Source of the DNA: Sipunculus nudus | Lineage: Eukaryota > Annelida > Sipuncula > Golfingiida > Sipunculidae | Assembly (NCBI GenBank): GCA_026874595.1 | Contig: CM049307.1 | Span: 32,475,862 to 32,539,861 of the forward strand | Direction of reading: 5' to 3' | Length of the DNA: 64,000 nt | Shown: one piece after another, positions 13,345-60,805 of the stretch | Position numbering within the stretch: the stretch's first letter is position 1 | Layout: each line of letters opens with the position of its first letter | Position numbers and translations under genes: made by a program | The notes under the pieces: generated by a model | Seen by the model: the letters and a program-made list of their open reading frames with translations, nothing else | Database searches by the model: none | What the model was told of the DNA's origin: nothing

Positions 13345-14146
13345 TTTCTGTTCGTCAACATTGGCACGTGTACCGCGTGTTTACTAACAGCATGTAGATT
13401 AACAGGTTATGCATCTGTCACAGGGCGTTATAAGAACTCTTCTGAGCAGGAATTAACTAGAGACTATAACTGTTAACCCAGAGTGTTTGTCAACCTGGGT
13501 ACCATGTTTACTAATAGCATGTAGATAAACAGGCTCATGCATCTGTCACAGGGCGTTATAAGAACTCTTCTGAGCAGGAATAAACTAGAGACCATAACTG
13601 TTAACCCAGAGTGTTTGTCAACCTGGGCACGGGTACCATGTTTACTAATAGCATGTAGATAAACAGGCTCATGCATCTATCACAGGGCGTTATAAGAACT
13701 CTTCTGAGCTGGAATAAACTAGAGACCATAACTGTTAACCCAGAGTGTTTGTCAACCTGGGCACGGGTACCATGTTTACTAATAGCATGTAAATAAACAG
13801 GCTCATGCATCTATCACAGGGCGTTATAAGAACTCTTCTGAGCAGGAATAAACTAGAGACCATAACTGTTAACCCAGAGTGTTTGTCAACTTGGGCACGG
13901 GTACCATGTTTACGAATAGCATGTAGATAAACAGGCTCATGCATCTATCACAGGGCGTTATAAGAATTCTTCTGAGCAGGAATAAACTAGAGACCATAAC
14001 TGTTTACCTAGAGTGTTTGTCAAAATGGGCACAGATACCGTGTTTACTAATAGCATGTAGATAAACAGGCTCATGCATCTATCACAGGGCGTTATAAGAA
14101 CTCTTCTGTGCATGAATTAACTAGAGACCATAACTGTTAACCCAGA
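13345..14146. repeat. satellite array, 134-bp unit, six copies
   Basis: The anchor CAGGGCGTTATAAGAA starts at 13,421, 13,549, 13,683, 13,817, 13,951 and 14,085, giving spacings of 128, 134, 134, 134 and 134 bp. Each unit also carries ACTAGAGACCATAACTG and a GTTAACCCAGAGTGTTTGTC block. The central copies are nearly identical and the outer copies are more diverged, as expected if unequal crossing-over homogenises the middle. The unit is not a multiple of three, and the repeated short frames it creates on the minus strand are not genes. Confidence 0.95.
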
Positions 14147-17523: not shown

Positions 17524-20500
17524 GTGCATTACCACAACACCAGTCACTACAAAAAAATTCACATGGCTACACATGTTATAATACTACATTCACACGGCTA
17601 CATCTGTCACAATACCACATTCACAATACAACACCTGTCACCAAACCATATTAACTCGGCAACCACCTCTCATAGTTCCACTTTCACACGGCAACACCGG
17701 TCACCATACCACATCTACACGGCAACACCGGTCACCATACCACATCTACACGGCAACACCTGTCACCAAACATCATCCACATGGTAACACCTGTCACCAA
17801 ACTACATACACACGGTAACACCTGTCACCATACTACATCCACATGGTTACACCTGTCACCATACTCCATCACTTGTCACCATACTACATCCACATGGTAA
17901 CACCTGTCACCAAACTACATCCACATGGTAACACCTGTCACCATACTACATCCACATGGTAACACCTGTCACCATACTCCATCCACATGGTATCACTTGT
18001 CACCATACTACATCCACATGATAAGACCTGTCACCATACTACATCCTAACGGTATCACTTGTCACCATACTACATCCACACGGTAACATCTGTCACCATA
18101 CTACATCCACATGGTAACACCTGTCACCAAACATCATCCACATGGTAACACCTGTCACCATACTACATCCACATGGTAACACCTGTCACCATACTCCATC
18201 CACATGGTATCACTTGTCACCATACTACATCCACATGGTAACACCTGTCACCATACTACATCCTAACGGTATCACTTGTCACCATACTACATCCACACGG
18301 TAACACCTGTCACCATACTACATTCACATGGTAACACCTGTCACCATACTACATCCACATGGTAACACCTGTCACCATACTACATCCACACGGTATCACA
18401 GGGGCGGATCCAGGATTTAGGGGAAAGGGGGGGGGGGGGTTCCAACCAAGGAGGACTAATGAAAAACCCAAAAAAGATCACCAGGTCCGGAAAAGGGGAG
18501 TCCAGCCTGCAAAATTTTGTCTGAAACCAATAAAGAAAGCTTGCAGCGGACGAAAGGGGGGGGGGGGGGACCACTCCCGTGGATCCGCTTCTGTATCAGT
18601 TGTCACCATACTACATCCTCATGGTGTCACTTGTCGTCATACTACATTCACATTGCAGCAATTTTCACCAAGCAACATGCACACGGCTACACCTGTTACT
18701 ATCATATCAAACTAAAAAAACACAAGTTAAAACTTACACATTATAACATTCACAAATTACTCGTGTGTTTATTAATACATATTTGTCACTACAACAATTG
18801 TACTTTAATCACTCGTTATATTACATGATCTACAAGTCTTTTGTCCTTACCACATAATACCTGTTCCATGAACACTTCAATCATTAATTATCAGTAACCT
18901 ACTCTATGCCAAATCACATATTTTAGAGTAGTCTCCCTTTTTCATTACCACATATTAACCACATTCATTCGTTAGCCACCTGTAACCATACACAAACCGT
19001 AATGAATTCTTGGTTTCGTGACTTCATATATATGTTAGCGCTTTTCCCCTCAAAACCAGTCTTTCCCACTTACTTCATATCTTAAGTTATTATAACCTAA
19101 AATGAAGAGCAAGAAAATATATCTTTCTTTGGAGTACAGGGCCCCTGCAATTAATATAATATATGCAACATTTATCTCTTTTATCTTTCCAGCAAAAGGA
19201 GCCAAACTCGTGTCAGGTAGGGTGGCTGATTGATAGCATCCTGGGACGCACTAATTCGGATTATGACAAGACGTGTCAGGCGCTTGAATTGTCCAACCAA
19301 AAACACGTGGCTCAGATACTCCAAAACCCTGAAGGCAAGCAATCTGTTAAGGAACAATGTGTTACCAAAAAATGTGGCACAAATGACAAAAAATCCCATA
19401 TCTAGAATCAATCCAAAAAGTTGTCTTATATTCATAATATACCCAATAAAGTATACATTATTTAAAATTTATTACAGTGTTCTTTCTGATGACATATAGC
19501 TTTTCATTAATTTTGACATGATTTTGATAGAGGAAAAACAAAAACCCACTTGTGAGATAGTGTCATGTAGTTTAATACTGCTCCGCTAAAAGTAGACTTG
19601 CTTTTTTCTGGGTGATTAACGTCCATTTTTTTAATAAAAAATTGTTAAAATATCATATGAAAATGAATAAAATTTACATATGTATACCATCAGAAGAAAC
19701 ACTGTATCAGGTTTTAAACAGTGTATACTTCATGGTTTAAATATAGATTTAAAAAAATTTGATTGATTTTAGATACAACGGAATATGCCAGTTTTGCTAC
19801 TCAAACAACATAAATGCACTTACAGTCAGGGCTCGCTATTAATAAGCAACAGAGATTCTTAACATACGTTAAAGCATTTTGAGATAAATTTATCTGTATT
19901 ATTGTACGGAACTGCCATTGCAATTGGTTTTACCAATGCAATAACGAATCGGACGTTAAAATAAAAAATGGTTCAGATTTATTCAAGATCAACTTCTACT
20001 CTTTGAACCGTTAATATATTTTTCAACATAATCGTCATTAAATGGAGGTCCTGTGTTACCAGGGGTATTGTTGGATGACTGGCGCAATCTACTGGCCGAG
20101 CACTACATCGACCACTATGGAAGGATGCGAGTCAACACCCACGGCGACGATGAGAGGGAAGCCCCTATAGACGAACTCTATACAGACACGTGTCTGACTA
20201 TACATGACGCGACTCCAAGTGAACCGGTCGAAACCAAACTACTCAGCTTCTTATCCAAGGTAAACTGCTTAAAAAAATCCACGGTCACATCATAATACAC
20301 TGGGGCAGTTACAGACTCCTAAAAAACAAGGGGGGGGGGGGGATCCCTGGCACAGGTAATTAATGATTCTTAAATACTCTATATCACAGAGGAGTAACTG
20401 AAACATGATCAGTCTCCCTTCAGTTAGTTTCTGCAAAGTTTTTTTTACTGTGTATACACAATTTCAAGCAAACATAGTGAAAACTGTTGCTCAGTTTACC

Positions 20501-34734: not shown

Positions 34735-34830
34735 CTAAAACTGCTCGTCCCATCCTGAGGTCTCATCTGGTGGTATGTCCATATCCTTTGGATAGCTGTC
34801 AAAGTTGCTGAAATCTGTCGGGCTTTTGAC
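34735..34830 (-). CDS. PKG terminal exon
   Basis: Encodes [20 protein letters not shown] then [11 protein letters not shown] and TAG. SPTD-x-SNFDS and SGWD near the C-terminus match the family's tail. Confidence 0.97.
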   Translation of the reverse strand, partial: VKSPTDFSNFDSYPKDMDIPPDETSGWDEQF

Positions 34831-37800
34831 CTGTAAATATTTTCAAAAGTGTCTAAATAATTTCATGTGGACCTTCTGTACTGAATTACAAACTTTCAAC
34901 AGAGCCAATGGCAAATCAAAAAATTTGAGAACAATCGGGTAGCTTATGAAACAGGGTTAGCCGTAGATGGATATCAAGAAAATGTAATTTTAAATTGTGC
35001 ATTTCACTTTTGTGTGGGAAAAATTATATTTAAATTATATATATAAATATAATGTGCCTACATAGTATATTAATTATGCAATTTTAGGAAAAAAATTTAT
35101 GGTTCTCAGGCACAACCTGCATCAATTTTAACCCCCCTGCATCAAAATTTTTTATTTTAATTTTCAAAAGAAACTTATAAATATTGAGCTCAAGCCCCTC
35201 TGCTAGAGCTGTGGCTCAAAACATTCTGTTATTATCATGCTTTTCCCTGATCATATGACATTTTTATGAACACATACATGAGGAGGGTAAAGATACCCTT
35301 CACAGAAAAGATGAGGATTTCCTAATCCTCAACTCTATTCTATTAAATGTTTTTACATAATGTAGTCACACTTAAGGGCGTTATTCCAGGTGGTTTTCTT
35401 TAATATTTATATTCCTTCAACTTAGAATATGAACTGGTGATGTCCCCCTCTTGAATTGCCACTGAATAGTAGTTTCTAAAATAGTCAATAGGTGGCAGCA
35501 CACGTTAAATATTTTTCAAGAAACTGTTAAATTTCAATTTACATATTACATATACAAAATAGTTAAATCCTCATGACGCCTTCACCTGTTATCAACTTCA
35601 ACTATTCCTTTTATGGATAACCAACAATTTCATCATTTCACATGCGTATACATACATGAGTGTATATATACTGACGTGTGGGACAAGGATAATTGTTGTT
35701 TGTGTATGTTGTCTCTTGGCATGCTTTCAGGTACATCAAAAGAGCAAGAATATATAACATTATTTATTTTACATGGATTGTACAACCAGTTAAAGTAACT
35801 CATACAAGGAACTCTCCATAGCTCAGATGTTGCAGCTCGGTAGTTGGTAAGGGTGGAGAAAACCGGAGGACCCAGGGAAAACCACAAACCTTGGATAGGC
35901 CAATACAACCCAATCTCATACCCATGCTGGGAATCAAACCCCTTGGTCCCCAGCAGAGAGGGACGAGCATTTTAAAATTCTGCTCTCCAGGCTGAAATGG
36001 CATTCTTTTAAAGGTATACATTGCTAAGATGAATTTTTATGACCCTTCTTTAGCATAGTATGCCACATCAGGAGGTAGGCCAGAAAAGGTGCATATAATG
36101 CTATATTAAGAGTCTCAGTGAGCCTGTTGAGAACTTTAAAACACACACAGTTATCTTTACCTTAGGTATAATAGGTGACTGACAAACACACACAGTTATC
36201 TTTACCTTAGGTATAATTGGTGACTTACAAACACACACAGTTTCTTTACCTTAGGTATAATGGGCGACTGACAAACACACACAGTTACCTTTAACTGAGG
36301 TATAATTGGCAACCGACAAACACACAATTTCTTTACCTTGGGTATAATAGGCGACTGACAAACACACACAGTTACCTTCAACCTAGGTATAATTGGCAAC
36401 CGACAACCACACACAGTTTCTTTACCTTGGGTATAATGGGTGGCACCATTGTCTGGTTCTTCAAACCCTCCCAGTCAAAACCTTGGAACCATCTACAGTG
36501 ATAAAAGATTAAGGATAATTAGAAATCAACAGCAAACATTCCCCACTTTAAATACATGATTCAACTAAATCTCCTGTCTGTATTCAATGCAAATAAAAAG
36601 GTTTAGTGAATGCCTTGGTAGCAATATGTGACTCAAGCAATTTGGCTCCACTGATGAGCTTGAAAGAGGTTTGTGGGTAATTTTAATTCTGTCAGTGGTA
36701 TTATGCTTCAAATTAGGTTTTGTTTCACAGCGAACAAATTACAGATGACTATGAATTAATTTGGCATCTAGACTTGTCAGTATTTGTGGTTTATGATATA
36801 ACTGTCCTGCCAACATGTAACTGGGTTGACAAAATAGTAACTGTCAAAAACTGATGGCCACCTTATCATGACTAAACAACAAGAGCCAAATTTAAGATAT
36901 ATGAAAGTGTATGAAAATTTGTTATATGTGGCTTAAATTTGAAAATTAACACAAATTAGATAAAATATACACCTATGAATCACCATCTTTATTCAAAGTG
37001 TCATCTTACAGACGTGTAACTATAATGACAGTAGTTTGCTCACTTGTGCTTCTTAATATCGATGATGCCATTCTTGCCATAGCCGAGCCTTTCCGCTGGA
37101 TTGTCACGACACAGCCTCTTTATCAGAAGGTGAGCAGTTCTGCTAATCTTTTTAGGAAACTCGATCACATCGATGCCTTTCAGGATGATGTTATAGGTCT
37201 TCATTGGATCTGACCCAGAAAATGGAGGACTGGAAATGAAGAGAACACAGAAATAAGCCCCATTTACACTAGAAAGATTGGGGTCCACCTAACCAAATCT
37301 CAGAGCAAGTGCTCTCATGTTTACAAAATATTAAATGGATAATATGTCATTTGCCTTCAAACATAAATTTCACAGTGACAATTTCAAAATTTTAATAATG
37401 TGTGAATATTGTGCTTACCTTATATTTATTCTCTCAAGTTTTAACTGTATATGGAAATTTATTGACAATATTACTTATATTAATGATGTGCTCCAAAGGC
37501 CAGTAAACATGCAGTGTACTGAAGGGAACAGTTTTTAAGTAATTTTTTTTGTGACCCAGTAATGTATTCTCAACTGTTTGTTAACTGGAGAAGTTTAATA
37601 GATGACCTAAATAAAATAATAATTAATTTATAAGGTTGTATCTGCAAAGGGTTCACCTCTGAATCAGATTATACCAACCAGTTTACTTGAGTCTTGAACA
37701 TGTATGCTTTGTGTCAGCACTGTAGTTTACTTTACAAAAGCCTAATTGGACTTATTTTATAAAATGAGTTTGCTGTCTGCACTTCATTGTTAATCAAGTT

Positions 37801-46800: not shown

Positions 46801-49800
46801 TATGTAGTGCTTTAACTTGTTTAGCAAAATACAACTGTGATTATCATGCTTTTCCCTTATAATTTTACATTTTTATTGAAACAAACAAAACATTTAACAT
46901 AAAAAACTGCCAGTCTGCATTGATTTAAGAAAAAAAGTGCCTGAGAACCAAACCTTATTTTTTTTGGCCTTACAGGTTAAAAGTCACATTCCAATTTTTC
47001 CCACTAGACATGATAATCAGATTCAAGGTAGAAGCATTCTGTTGGTGCAGGAACCAGATGTTCAATCAAAAGTGCACAATATTACAATATATATGTAAAT
47101 ATTGTTTTAAGAATTGATAAACATACAGTAAATATCTTGACCAATCACCATGTAATAATAGTCAACACTTTTGATTTTTTTGTTTAAAGTGCACTGATCA
47201 TTGAATATCCCAGGTACATTATATATTTTCAGTTCTGCTTTGAACTGAAGATCTTTATTTAATATATTGATTGGTGATTTAGGTGCAATCACAATATTCC
47301 CCTCCAAAAGTGAAGCACTGCAGCCAGGAAAAGCCAACTCTAAATTTCTTCATCTCCCTACCATTAACTCCATCAGCAACTTTATTTCTGAATTTCAGTA
47401 ACAACCACTGTTAACTGTGTTAGTAAATTTATGGGTTTGGACACCAAAAAAAATAAAATACCAGTCTTGTAAAGACAGCTCCTGTATGTTTCACTTTAAG
47501 GTTCTGGGGAAAATTTTTCAACCTTTTTCATTGTCAAAATTGATAGGAGTATATCTGATGTGTGCTCAGAAATTGATAGAGGTCATTTTTGCTAGAAACA
47601 TTCAGGCATGTTCATGGAAAAAGCCAGAGCAGCTCAATGAATCAAGGTCTCTGTAAGCATGGCTACCACAGACTTGGTGATATGAAAATGGTAAATACTT
47701 TTACAGCTGGTGCACTTGGCAGATAAGCATTTTTCAGACCTCTCATGGGTATCACCTGTACATGGTGGTTTTGTTACACATTGCACCATGGAACACAATT
47801 TTATCCATCTGTTCTCAATAACCTGGTGAAAAAATTCATGATTGGTTCAAGTTATATTTGGGGGAGTACTACTTTAACATCACCTGGTTTGAAATCAGGA
47901 ATATTTAAGATAATTAGCAATAAGTTTGCAATGCAATCCACTTCACTTTTAACAAGTGTCTTACATAACACTGCACTCTGAACAAAACTGCAACCAGTGA
48001 GACACTGCACATGTGCAGTGTATATTGGCACTGTAACACTGCAATGGACAACCACAATCACTATGAAAGAGTGTACTTTAGTGCATAACAGTGCATGCAC
48101 AACACTTGATTTTGAGACACTGCAACATGCAGTGAGTTTTTGTCATGTATTGCTTTGAAAGGTATCACTCCATTATGTAGCCATTGTTCATGTGAATTCT
48201 CATTTATTCACTTCTTATACAGTGTGCACCTCATAGTTAAAAGTTTCACATTTTTTATAATCAAACTCATTTGATTTTTTTTTATTCAATCAGTCTTGAT
48301 AGATCAGCATCGATTTAGAACTATCAAGAAAAACAGTAGTGCTGGCAATTGATATTTCTTTGAAGTAAATCAAGGGTAGGCAGAGAATATGCTTAGGTCA
48401 TTCATTCTACCAAACAAATTGTCAATTTCTTCAGTGTTATTGCATTCAGTAAGTGGTGTATGGTATACACAATCAAACAAGCCAGGTGTACCAGGATATG
48501 AGCAAGCATTAACCAGGGTTAGTCAAAGTGCACAAACATACTCTAGATGTTTAGACTTAACAGGTGTCCGAGGTTTGGGTGTTTCAGATTTTACAGGTTC
48601 TCTGACTTTTGTCCTGGAATAAACGAGTAATATAGTGATACAATAAAGGATATCACGAAACTGGTTTAAGAAAGTATTAACTATAAATTACTGTAAAAAG
48701 ATCTCTCTTAAACTGTTCTTTTCATAGATGGTCCCTACTTCAAAAGACTAGGTGGTCAGTCACCTTGTAATTTAAAGGTTTTTTTTCTGTTATCAGGGTG
48801 CATGTTTTAATAGCTCATGCTCCTCCAGCAAAAGCCAGGGTTAGAACAGAATCAATATTATCTATACTTAAATGAATCTTAATATCTTGTTTTCTGCAAG
48901 TTTATGGTGTCTCATTATAATAGTGATCGATATAGCATACACTGACTTTAGTCAGTCTCATAAGTCATAAGTTTAGCAGATGTCACAAACATAATGAACA
49001 GATATATAGAAAGTGGAAATAATGAGAAGTAAAGGATAAGTAAGTTTAGGCAGGAGCCTAGAAATAAAAACATCTCTTTGTTGCTATCTATATGCAACTA
49101 TATCCTTGACTCGAGAATCAAATGATAAGTGAAGTTCCCCAAGTTATAACTTCCCGAGTAGGCACTGCATTCCAACTATATGAACAAAAGTAACACTGAT
49201 ATCATTTAATTGGTTATTTACTGAAGTACTAACAATCTATTGTATGTTTAACAAGTGACCCATGGGTCATGACGCTCTGCTGACTGGGAAGAGATTCGCA
49301 AAAGGAAATTTTATCATCAGAATGGTAGTATATACCCATTCAACTGAAGCATCAAACAGATTAACCAACAGGCCAAGATTAAGTCTGTATTTATATATCT
49401 CGAAAATAGAGAAAAATGTGTAAACTTTTAAAACTAGAATACGGGTAACCGACAAGTGACTACATGTATCTGCCAAAATCGGATAGTGAGGCATGGATTG
49501 AGTGGCAAGGGGAAATAGAGTGAGGTATGTTGCATATTAGCATGGATGTCTGCAGCCTAAATGTGTATGTAGGTTGTGCCACCTACCACAAATCCAGAAA
49601 GCTGTCCAAGTTGTATACACCTGCAAGATTTTAGGCAGAAAAGTCAAACCACTACATGTATATGAGCGATTTTTGCCCATGGCAGACAAACAGACAAACA
49701 CTGTGCAAAAATCTTTGCAGGTAACCCCTCCAGTTTTGTGTATGATAAAGACCTATGTGAGATCTAATCACATGCACAATTTTGGCCCAATCAGTCAAAT

Positions 49801-52800
49801 GGTTCCTGAGATATGAGCTTGGATGTGTCCAGCGTTATCTAGAATGTAGGTGGCGCCACCTGTCATAAAATCAAGAAAGCTGTCCACGATGTATAAACCT
49901 GCAAAATTTTAGGCAGTTATGTTGAACCACTACAGAGAAATGAGTAATTTTAGGCCACGGCAGACTAACAGACAGACGCTGTGCAAACATTGTTACAGGT
50001 GGCCCCACCATTTTTTGTGTATGTTACAGAGCTATCAAAGGGCTACATTTGTATAAATTTTATTTCCTGATCGGTCAAACGGTTCCCGAGATATAAGCTT
50101 GGATGTCATCAGCGTGAACGTGAACGTAGGTGGCGCCACCTGTCATAAAATCAAGAAAGCTATCCTGGATGTATACACATGACGAATTTCAGGTGAATTA
50201 GTCAATTCACTGCAGAGATATGAGTGATTTTAACCCAAGGCAGATGAACAGATGGACACTGTGCAAACATGGTTACAGGTGGCGCCACCATTTTTTGTGT
50301 ATGTTATAAAGCAATCCAAGGGCTACATTTGTATCAATTTTATATCCTGATCGGTCAAACGGTTCCCAAGATATGAGGGTTTATGAGTGGAAACAGACCC
50401 ACAAATGGACACTGGATAGAGAGGAAAGGTCAGAGGTCAATGCAAATTGCTTAGGCACCAGTTCACATGTGACCCGATAATAGGTGTAAGTTTGGGAAAA
50501 ATCGGTCCATTAGTCTTCGAGGAGCTCTCTGGAAACGAACGCTGCCGCGGCGGAGGAACTCGGTCAAAAACATAGTATCCGCAAAACTTCGTTTTGGCGG
50601 ATACAAAAATACAGGTGGCTCCACCAGTCTGCAGAAACTAATAAAAACACTTAATGGTCAATATCCATGCAAAAAATCATGGTGATCTCTGCATTAGTTG
50701 TTCAGATACTTCAGTTTTTGTATCAAATTGTCCATTATTCTGAGGGATACTTCGGAGTCCTATAGCTTGAAGGATATGGGTAACAGAGACCTAATTTCAA
50801 GTTTCCACAGGCACCTTAAATGGGCCTCCTTGCATGACAAGAATGAAGATTCTAGGTCCAGTTGTTGCGATTTGTACCCTGTTGACAGATAACCACATCT
50901 TTAAAGGTCTCAAAAAAAAGAAAAAAATTCGTAAAAATTTGAAAAAAAAATAGAGGTGGCACACCCAGTCTGCAGAAACTGATGGAACAGCTCATGATCA
51001 ATATGTATGCCGAAAATCATGACCATCAGTGTTGTAGTTATTGAAATACTGCAGTTTTTGTATCAAATTTTCCATTATTCTGGGGGGGGGGGGGTACTTT
51101 GGACCCATACAGCTTAAAGAATATGGGTAACAGAGACCTAATTTCAAGTTTCCATGGAGACTTTTCATGGGTCTCCCTGTGTGTCAAGAATGAAGATTCT
51201 CGGTCTAGTTTTTATGATTTGTGCCCTGTTAACAGATGTTCATATCTTTAAAGGTCTCAAAAATACAGAAAAATTTCGTAAAAAAAACCGAACAAATACA
51301 GGTGGTGCCACCAGTCTGCAGAAACTGATGAAACACTCCATGATCAATATCCATGCAAACAATTATGGTTATCTCTGCATTAGTTGTTCAGATACTTATT
51401 ATTCAAATTTTCCATTATTCTGAGCTGTACTTTGAGTGCCATAGCTCAAAGGATATGGGTAACAGAGACCAAATTTCAGGTTTCCATGGAGACTTATCAT
51501 GGGTCTCCCTGTGTGTCAAGAACGAAGATTCTAGGTCCAGTCGTTAAGATTTGTACCCTGTTGACAGATAACTACATCCTTAAAGGTCTCAAAAATGGAG
51601 AAAACAATTCGTGAACATTGAAAAATACAGGTGGCGCCACCAGTCTGCACAAACTGATGAAACATCTCATGATCAATATGTATGTCGAAAATCATGACCA
51701 TCAGTGATGTAGGTAATGAGATATTGAAGTTTTTGTATGAAATTTTTGACTATTCTGGGGGGTAATTTTGGGCCCTATAGCTCGAAGGATATGGGTAACA
51801 GAGACCTAATTTCTGGTTTCGATGGAGACTTTTCATAGGTCTCTCAGTGTGTCAAAAATGAAGATTCTAGGTCCAGTCGTTACGATTTGTGCCACGCTAA
51901 CAGATGACAGCATCCTCAAAGGTCTCAAAAATAGAGGAAAAAATCGTAAAAAATCAAACAGTACAGGTGGCGCCACCAGTCTGCAGGAACTGATCCAACA
52001 TCTCATGATCAATATGTATGCCAAAAATGAAGACCATCAGTGATGTAGTTATTGAGATATTGAAGTTTTTGTATGAAATTTTTTACTATTCTGGGGGGTA
52101 CTTTGGGGCCCCATAGCTCAAAGGATATGGGTAACAGAGACCTAATTTCTGGTTTCCAAGGAGATTTTTCATGGACCTCTCAGTGTGTCAAGAATTAAGA
52201 TTCTAAGTCCAGTCTTTATGATTTGTGCCTTGTTAACAGATGTTCACATTTTTAAAGGTCTCAAAAATAGAGAAAAAAATTCGTAAAAAATCGAAAAATA
52301 CAGGTGGCCCCACCAGTCTGCAGGAAGTGATGTAACATCTCATGATCAATAAGTATGCCAAAAATCATGACCATCAGTCAAGTAGTTAATGAGATATTGA
52401 AGTTTTTGTATGAAATTTTTTACTTTTCTGGGGGGTACTTTGGGGCCACATAGCTCGAAGGATATGGGTAACAGAGACCTAATTTCTGGTTTCCAAGGAG
52501 ATTTTTTATGGACCTCTCAGAATCCCAAGTTACAAGGTTCTAGGTCCAGTGGTTACGATTTGTGCCTGGTTAACGGACGGACAGACGGACAAAGAGTGAT
52601 CGCTATAGCTCAGATGACTTTCAGTCAGCTGAGCTAATAAATTATACAAACATACTAACAAACAAATGTTAGCTTCTGGATACAAATGTTCTAGTACCAG
52701 ATATTAAAGGTTACAGGTTTGTTTTTTCTTAAAGTGGAAATATTTGGCATAAAATACTTATGAAAACTAGATATTTCTTGGCACCGCAGGTGCCACAGTA

Positions 52801-55800
52801 TACCCAGACAATTAATCCCCCTCCCCTTTAAGAATAGGCCCCCATCTTCAGCAACAATTAATATCAGACCACACTCATAGAAAAGGTCACTCTCACAGAA
52901 AAGGTCATGACCCCAATTTCAATATACATCATCCCCTAACCCATGTCTATGTATATGCATAATATAAAAGAAATCTGTCCATTAGTTTTTGACTTATAAT
53001 GCTCACAGTACTGTTAAGTGGCAATGATGGGGTATTAAACGGCACGAAAACAAGAAAAAGAATAACAGGTGGCTCTACCAGTTTCTGGTACATGACAACA
53101 CTATCCAAGATCTTAGGTCAAGTTGATTTTTGGACTAATCAATGCATCCCTTATTGAGATATTAATGATTTTGTGTGATTTTCACCATATATGGCAATAT
53201 TCAAGGTCAAGGCCACTCTCATAGGAAAGGTCACGACCCCAATTTAAATAAACATCATCCCATAACTTATATCTATGTATATTCATAATATGAAAGAAAT
53301 CTGTCCATTAGTTTTTGACTTATAATGCTCACAGTACTGTCTAGTAGCAATTTTGGGGGTATTAAACGGCAAGAAAAAAGTAAAGAAAAACAGGTGGTGC
53401 CACCAGTTTCTGGAACTTGACAACCCTATCCATGATCTTCCATCAACTTGATTTTGGGATCAATCCATGCAAGATTTCTTGAGATATTTAAGAATTTGTG
53501 TGATTGTCCCAAAAATTGGACCTATTCAAGGTCAGGGACACTCTCCTAGTCAAGGTCATGACCTCATTTTAAATAGGCGACGTCTTCTCACCCATATCTA
53601 TACATATACCAAGTTTGGTAAAGATCCGTGAAATATTTTTTGTGTTATCGTGCCAACAAGATTTATATGCGGCGGCGGGGGGACCAGTATGAAAACATAG
53701 TATCCCTCCGACTTTATACAATAATTACCTTACAGATAATGAAACCTAATTATTCATTGATTGAAGAAGTCCCTATCATTGTTACAATCTTGGGCAGTAC
53801 TTGAAGACTATATTTAATGTTTTTCTTTTTTTTGGTATCTGGGAGGAGTTATTTTCAGATGTTAGCTGACTTCCATAAAGGAATACAAGTATGGTCAATG
53901 TTTTTACAACTCCTGAAAATGACTGATCATATTTTATGTGGCTAACACTGTACAGTTCAACAGTGAAGAGAAAGTTCAGAATTGCAGCCTAAACCATATA
54001 AATCGTTGATGTTTTGGCATGCTTTTGAAAATTCCTTTTACAACTTCTTGTAGAAGGAGTTGCATTTTCAACTAGTCTGTCTCATGTAGAATTTTGCAAA
54101 TGATTACATACACATGCAAGCATCTTGTATTAAAATGTTACCATCAGGCAAAAAAAGTTAGTGATGACCTAGTATTTACAGACTGATTAAGAAATCCTCC
54201 TTGTTTTACATCCGAGTGTTACAGCTTTGACTCATGTCCCCTCAAAACACAAGGTGATCAGAGTATTCTTAACAAAACAAAAAGGTCAAAACAGCCATTT
54301 TTTTTATCAAAGTACCAACATTTCAAACATTTTCATTATTTACTCATCTGACTTTAACAATAACTTTGGTTTACTGTCCATTAATAACACTACTGGTGCT
54401 GCCTGGTGCTGTAACTAAAGCGACCATGACAGGTGTTTAAGTGTCTGGTGTATGTGCACCATACTAACCTCTGTACCCCTCTCTTCTCATCACCATAGTC
54501 TTTTTCTCTGAGTTCATTCAGATCTCCAATCAGCTGATTAAAGGAACTGTAACATGTGAAAAGAAAACATGTATACCATACAACAGAACTGTAAGTTGAT
54601 CTGTTTAAATCAACATAAGGATAAAGTTACTCCAAAGGAACACATGGAACATTGACCAATTCGAACTGAGGTTTCATGCTACATATAAGTGGACTGCTAA
54701 AAGATAACACAAACAAATCATATTATACAATCAACTGTATTTTTTAGTAACATAACTGAAATAAATGTGATTATATATAAAAAGGCTTTAAAACAGTATT
54801 CCATTTATTTGTTTTCTAAAATGTTACAAAATACCACTGTTCATCATAGTCCAACATATAGTCACATGATTCCTTTTGACATATAATGATGAATTACTGA
54901 TTGTCATGTACTTTGGCTATTCAAGAGTTAACAATTCATTATGGCATCTCAAGAGTTAAACAGCAGCACTCATTGTCACTTAAACATTTTCTGTTTTGGT
55001 TTTGGACTCATTCATTTTTCGTGCAAAACTACTGCAACTAAGAGACACTGTTAAACAAGGGACCCATGGGTCAGTGTGCTCAGCTGAAGTTGACCTTGAG
55101 GGTAAAATTCTAAAATAATATCAAATGGAGATAAAGTGTAAGAGAAAGAGGTTATAAAGGCCATGGTTGGTTTATATGATTGGTTTGTATTGATGAGCAA
55201 GAAATTGTTGCAAATAATATTTTGTGACCTGACCATGTGTTTCCTAATGTTGAAACTGAAGCATGTGAGCAGTTTGTGAACAAATGATCTGTACTATTAC
55301 CATGATCATTAGTTGGCCTATTGATTAACAGTTGACATTTCAGTAGTTTACACATTTGTTCAATTGAATCTATTTTTTTGTAAAATATATATTATTAAAT
55401 ATATATGTATGTTTTTATGAAATGTATACAGTTGAAATATAACTAATTAACAACATAAAACAGGGCAAACAAAGCCTGATCTCAAACTCTGCTGAGGCAG
55501 GAAAATAAAGAACAAATGTTTGTATTAAATCCTCGTTTTTTTATCACATCAATTTTTTAAAATTTAAATTTATATTTCTATACATTTCCAATATAACATA
55601 TATATCTGAATATAAAAGTTGATTCATAATTCTCAATTGCATTATCATAAATCTCAATCTTGTCAGATAACACCACATCATGCATACAAATGTTTATTTA
55701 TTTTTTACCACAAAAATATATCTTTAAAATCTGCAAAACAATAAATATCTAAAAATAATACTTGATTTTGATTTCACAATTTTTAATTGTGTCTTTATTT

Positions 55801-60404: not shown

Positions 60405-60805
60405 GTTCACAGATATTATCACACCAGTTCACAGACATAAGTTCACAGATATAACCTCACAAATTTCACAGATATAACCTTACTAGTTCACAGATATAAC
60501 CTCACCAATTCACATGAAGATGTAACCTCACTTATTCACAGATATAACCTCACCAGTTCACATGCAGATATAACCTCACCAGTTCACAGATATAACCTCA
60601 CCAGTTCACAGATACAACCGCACCGGTTCACAGATATAACCTCACCAATTCACATGAAGATCATAACCTCACCAATTCACATGAAGATTTAACCTCACCA
60701 GTTCACAAATATAACCTTACCAGTTCACAGATATAACGTTCCTCAGCAGTTCACAGATATATAGTTCCTCACCAGTACACAGATATAACCTCACCAGGAA
60801 CAAAT
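60405..60805. repeat. 22-bp minisatellite, about 18 units
   Basis: Unit GTTCACAGATATAACCTCAC plus CA, with variants such as AATTCACATGAAGAT. It lies upstream of PKG exon a, so in an intron of that gene if the gene continues to the right. Confidence 0.92.

Follow-up and report, generated by a model that had tools for sequence, protein, structure and literature searches.

In the human gene IFI6 (G1P3, 6-16), a minisatellite reportedly described by Turri and colleagues in 1995 supplies several splice donors. Its unit is of about 12 bp, and the use of an extra unit keeps the reading frame. Two downstream repeat units of IFI6 act as donors, giving rise to three mRNA species (PMC4526556). Here we describe an array that is, by its sequence, of the same kind, in that it overlaps the end of an exon and repeats its donor. 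It was found in a single 64,000-nt stretch of Sipunculus nudus DNA (contig CM049307.1), hereafter the window, to which the whole analysis refers. The host gene, on the minus strand, resembles those encoding cGMP-dependent protein kinase (PKG); the array stands across the end of one of its exons, l, and the beginning of the intron leading to the last coding exon, m. The true donor of exon l is thereby followed by six strong donor sites, or decoys, which are probably silent for the most part.

The array is a minisatellite, composed of head-to-tail copies of a unit within the 10-100 bp range, and Tandem Repeats Finder (TRF) calls it at 36139-36437 with a period of 45 (84% matches) and with one of 89 (90% matches). 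Its seven copies are designated units U1 to U7 (Table 1), and ATTATACC is invariant across all of them. The final 14 nt of exon l and its donor fall within unit U1, and the array is made from them, in agreement with an earlier interpretation made from the letters alone (the sequence-only reading), which had seen the array as built from the exon end and its donor. The same reading had counted four downstream units with an intact AAG/GTAAAG donor (the slash marks the exon-intron boundary) and two with a shifted AAG/GTAACT donor, and this count is exact, the former being U3, U5, U6 and U7 and the latter U2 and U4. It had erred in taking the next strong donor to be a TATACC[CT]AAG/GTAAAG copy: this copy is at +89 nt, and the nearest strong donor is the shifted site of unit U2, at +50 nt.

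Donors and acceptors were scored with matrices, that for donors being a vertebrate one. On this scale, the true donor reaches 7.52, the shifted sites 8.45 and eight other PKG donors 4.05-10.14. The duplex energy computed with the 5' end of U1 small nuclear RNA (snRNA) is -6.8 kcal/mol for AAGGTAAAG and -6.5 kcal/mol for AAGGTAACT. Sequences and scores thus bear out the proposal that several near-equal donors are consecutively offered to U1 snRNA, with the nuance that the intact copies are identical in AAG/GTAAAG but the shifted sites score higher than the real donor. The l-m intron contains, inside 320 nt, 6 donor-like sites scoring at least as high as the real donor, when in 1000 dinucleotide shuffles of this intron the maximum averages 1.3 and never exceeds 4. 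Of the 6 occurrences of AAGGTAAAG in the window, 5 are in units U1, U3, U5, U6 and U7 (mean of 0.75 and maximum of 3 in 100 shuffles), and 7 of the 27 sites scoring at least 7.52 in the stretch 34735-60067 fall within the array.

By their sequence, the exons of the host gene encode cyclic-nucleotide, kinase and C-tail portions of a PKG. Ten exons (a-e, g, h and k-m) were placed by eye from PKG-like open reading frames and their splice sites. The top PDB match of exon k, at the kinase end, is PKG1 (7.2e-28), and that of exons l and m, joined and translated, is the C-terminus of human PKG1 (E 5.4e-19); exon a has a single, weak match, to PKG2 (0.086), and exons c, d and e are presumed to belong to the gene from likeness alone. 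A Pfam scan of eight PKG pieces recognised the kinase domain in two, placed cNMP_binding slightly under the cut-off in one, and returned nothing for five. Exon l codes for 23 residues, with two bases contributed by the preceding exon, and the l-m intron is 1595 nt long. Joining 36426 to 34830 yields the full normal PKG C-tail ending in SGWDEQF, in line with PKG1, and we infer that 36426 is the donor producing functional PKG.

Table 1. Coordinates of the array, of the two PKG exons flanking it and of the candidate microexons. Stop distance: nucleotides from the shared TGA to the junction that would be formed.
Feature	Position	Strand	Description
PKG exon l	36426..36492	-	67 nt; true donor CCCAAG/GTAAAG at its end; acceptor ending CACTGTAG before 36492; translated together with exon m, resembles human PKG1
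PKG last coding exon m	34735..34830	-	31 residues then stop; start 34830, stop ends 34735
45-bp minisatellite, U1-U7	36130..36439	-	seven copies, head to tail; U1 overlaps the end of exon l
Unit U1	36396..36439	-	44 nt; exon l end and true donor, last exon base 36426
Unit U2	36351..36395	-	45 nt; original donor lost; shifted AAG/GTAACT, last base 36376; contains TGA 36380-36378; stop distance 2 nt
Unit U3	36309..36350	-	42 nt; intact decoy AAG/GTAAAG, last base 36337; stop distance 41 nt
Unit U4	36264..36308	-	45 nt; original donor lost; shifted AAG/GTAACT, last base 36289; stop distance 89 nt
Unit U5	36220..36263	-	44 nt; intact decoy AAG/GTAAAG, last base 36250; stop distance 128 nt
Unit U6	36175..36219	-	45 nt; intact decoy AAG/GTAAAG, last base 36206; stop distance 172 nt
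Unit U7	36130..36174	-	45 nt, end fixed by script, 3' part diverged; intact decoy AAG/GTAAAG, last base 36161; stop distance 217 nt
Candidate 18-nt microexon SPIIPK in U3	36337..36354	-	computational only
Similar 18-nt candidates	36267-36250, 36223-36206, 36178-36161	-	computational only

All six decoys would extend exon l into one and the same TGA, that of unit U2, and their products share a single ending of 15 residues followed by a stop, whose sequence had been predicted exactly by the sequence-only reading. Two weaker GT sites (36326 and 36229), scoring at least 4, also lead to this truncated protein; the GT at 36415 (score 3.83), being 5' of the TGA, stands outside the count of decoy products. 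As one stop is shared by all decoys, extra units add no C-terminal variety, and the idea that unit number tunes PKG C-terminal isoforms has to be rejected: through the decoy sites, unit number could at most alter the amount of normal message. The anticipated loss of the SGWD tail does hold, but it is part of a larger one, as the whole tail after PPIIPK disappears, including FDSYP. This segment of exon m aligns with FDDYE of PKA and is the active-site tether (FDxYP) of the AGC-kinase tail; with its loss, the truncated product is more likely to be defective than to be a tuned isoform. By the 50-55-nt rule of nonsense-mediated decay, messages spliced from 36376 and 36337 would escape decay and those spliced from the other four decoys would not. 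Any decoy use would then give one truncated ending, part of which would probably be removed by this decay.

We consider it probable that the downstream donor copies are largely neutral, being used at a low level at most. The original donor has been lost in two of the six decoy units (U2 and U4), which favours neutrality. Across the units, 4 of the 9 donor columns are variable, compared to 14 of the 36 other columns (2 of 11 on the upstream side, 12 of 25 on the downstream side). Elsewhere in the window, a presumably intronic 22-bp minisatellite is present upstream of exon a (60440-60797), with minus-strand units like CTGTGAACTGGTGAGGTTATAT packed with CTG/GTGAGG. In it, 10 sites per 320 nt score at least as high as the donor of exon l, compared to 7, including the true donor, in the exon l array. 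No PKG exon was recognised beside it, and such clusters can therefore arise from unit composition alone. As the donor columns are in addition kept no better than the other columns, the array does not demonstrate selection for the decoys.

Several points nevertheless weigh against such a silence. With seven copies, the donor-conservation test is low in power. The decoys equal or exceed the true donor by score, and donors of identical sequence are indistinguishable by strength. When U1 snRNA occupies a pair of donors separated by more than 40 nt, the downstream one is preferred (PMC5933811, citing Eperon et al.), and the decoys are here at least 50 nt away from the true donor, that is beyond this limit. 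Downstream units are moreover used in IFI6, two of them (PMC4526556). The RNA of the array is no more folded than its shuffles (z 0.48), and six short pieces of it, with z values from -1.49 to 0.56, do not go beyond their shuffles either; the fold being ordinary, structure does not account for the silence of the decoys. The passages of PMC8724738 consulted leave the preference between two donors unsettled.

The decoys could on the contrary be used appreciably, donor competition diverting the PKG message towards truncated or decaying forms, and the array would then act as a brake whose strength is set by its length. This appears unlikely to us, without being far-fetched. Donor scores and duplex energies are near-equal, the spacing is in the range above 40 nt where PMC5933811 reports a downstream preference, IFI6 provides a precedent (PMC4526556), and the donor of unit U3 has a predicted accessibility of 0.139, compared to 0.120 for the true donor. 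Four of the six decoys, moreover, leave 89-217 nt between the stop and the junction, so that decay is predicted, which is not the case of the other two (2 and 41 nt). However, the shifted decoys and that of unit U6 are poorly accessible in predicted local folding (0.001, 0.005 and 0.006 over six intron bases). In both U2 (36366-36406) and U4 (36279-36319), pairing is possible between the shifted donor and the GGTTGCC ending the preceding unit, which would hide the donor; the small hairpins at these two donors are within shuffle range (z -1.17 and -1.49).

Extra U1 snRNA sites might also be helpful without being used as donors, if U1 snRNA bound downstream strengthened the definition of exon l, as has been reported for exon 11 of PAH (PMC5933811). 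Exon l is indeed short, and its donor matches CAGGTAAGT at 6 of 9 positions. In PAH, however, the variants concerned are at intron positions +17 and +20, and a larger distance leads to exon skipping and cryptic site use (PMC5933811), whereas here 50 nt separate the true donor from the nearest strong decoy. In addition, the acceptor of exon l scores 8.14 and ranks fourth among the ten real acceptors, so that the exon does not look weak. Such a helping role seems improbable to us, clearly more so than a brake.

It is far less conceivable that splicing treats units U3, U5 and U7, and perhaps U6, as in-frame microexons of 18 nt that each insert SPIIPK before the conserved tail, in which case the hexapeptide would be repeated according to the number of dimers. 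Four AG-bounded segments of 18 nt, TC[GA]CC[TCA]ATTATACC[CT]AAG, all encode SPIIPK in phase 0, and the units holding them are precisely the four whose donor is intact. The acceptors at 36354, 36267 and 36178 score 5.82, slightly below the 90th percentile (5.85) of the 1365 AGs of the gene stretch and inside the span of the ten real acceptors (2.77-9.72), and the implied introns (36426-36354, 36337-36267 and 36250-36178) would be of 71, 69 and 71 nt. Such introns are nevertheless very short, no yUnAy branch-site-like motif is present within the array, the tract is UG-rich, the fourth acceptor, at 36223, reaches only 0.44, and a stronger AG (9.09) stands right beyond the array, at 36123. The AG and the intact donor are also linked through the alternation of two unit types, A and B, in a dimer, so that their coincidence amounts to about one event and not four. 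It would be just as surprising if the 89-bp dimer consisted of one 18-nt microexon and an intron of about 70 nt, its growth adding in-frame SPIIPK repeats to the PKG C-tail. If true, a minisatellite would be lengthening a protein by tandem microexons instead of a coding repeat.

When scored as acceptors, the six AAG/GT copies downstream of exon l reach 0.76-2.45, below all ten real acceptors. These weak scores speak against a dual-specific or recursive use of the AAG/GT copies; the TAG/GTTG site of unit U2 (36382) is an exception, scoring 3.77 as an acceptor, within the real range, and being weak as a donor. Intronic polyadenylation was set aside as well: AATAAA is present in the intron at 35768 and 35156, and this motif is too common to be meaningful alone.

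Whatever the use made of the decoys, the array was probably copied from the exon. About 45 bp across the end of exon l and the start of the intron would have been duplicated in tandem, and subsequent growth would have proceeded by 89-bp dimers and probably by single units too, which would have left, 3' of the true donor, a minisatellite whose sites for U1 snRNA are redundant. The number of differences between units is 10, 12, 11, 7, 3 and 7 at lag 1, and 4, 3, 9, 4 and 7 at lag 2. Growth by an A/B dimer, as put forward by the sequence-only reading, is thus well supported for U1 to U4, where U1 and U3 differ at 4 positions and U2 and U4 at 3, compared to 10, 12 and 11 between neighbours, but it is less clear beyond U4. 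Units U5 and U6 differ at only 3 positions, which suggests that single-unit copying or conversion probably also occurred. PPIIP, encoded in the copied part, is common to exon l and human PKG1, and the exon sequence thus probably predates the array. That an older intronic minisatellite instead spread into the end of exon l is very hard to believe, since, even though ATTATACC is common to all copies and the sequence alone gives no direction, the PPIIP codons align with human PKG1 and the window contains no extra copy of the unit core (at most 3 mismatches), which was found in six of the seven units only, U2 having drifted beyond this limit.

The 17-base unit core matched once in each of 10 viral stretches; these matches, uninspected, were treated as chance. 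When the protein of exon h was compared to viral contigs, 8 stretches matched the pattern and none was confirmed as a relative. Other repeats are present in the window. The interval 49534-53575, between exons d and c of the PKG gene, holds three adjacent long-unit tandem arrays (periods 280, 336 and 325). A 134-bp unit is repeated in 6 copies at 13349-14146, and a 31-bp unit in about 27 copies at 17560-18399, an array for which TRF also gives periods of 62 and 93. The stretch at 35815-35990 contains GAGAAAACCGGAGGACCCAGGGAAAACC and GGGAATCAAACC and is reminiscent of a short interspersed element (SINE) with a conserved core; ARAGORN recognised no tRNA at 35500-36200, and Rfam gave no match across the window at gathering scores.

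In this array, near-identical donors follow one another naturally after a single exon, and the units can be distinguished by diagnostic bases. If its length varies, nature would offer the same exon with more or fewer competing donors, and the choice of U1 snRNA among equal sites could be tested directly, in a signalling gene where a wrong choice would remove the kinase tail. Compared to the unit of IFI6, which is of about 12 bp and keeps the frame, the PKG unit is of 45 bp and all six decoys end in a stop; downstream use is reported in IFI6, whereas the PKG array is known from its sequence. In human paralogs, minisatellites with units averaging 30 bp change splicing at exon-intron boundaries, a position like that of the PKG array, but they create novel introns, whereas at the PKG locus the intron already exists and the repeat, lying within it, covers its donor (PMC2812944). 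Intron gain by tandem genomic duplication similarly involves a duplicated splice-like AGGT sequence, although no new intron is evident at the PKG locus (PMC4974935). The minisatellites of earthworm metallothionein are intronic, and the passages of PMC12783039 consulted state no link with a donor. The polyubiquitin gene UBC also contains a tandem array with AGGT in its units, as in the PKG array, these UBC sites being dual-specific, but its units are coding, in frame and of 228 nt, whereas the PKG units are mostly intronic and their AAG/GT copies downstream of exon l are poor acceptors by score (PMC10809524). The closest known case is finally the IFI6 minisatellite, of which the present array would be, as far as its sequence tells, a further member.
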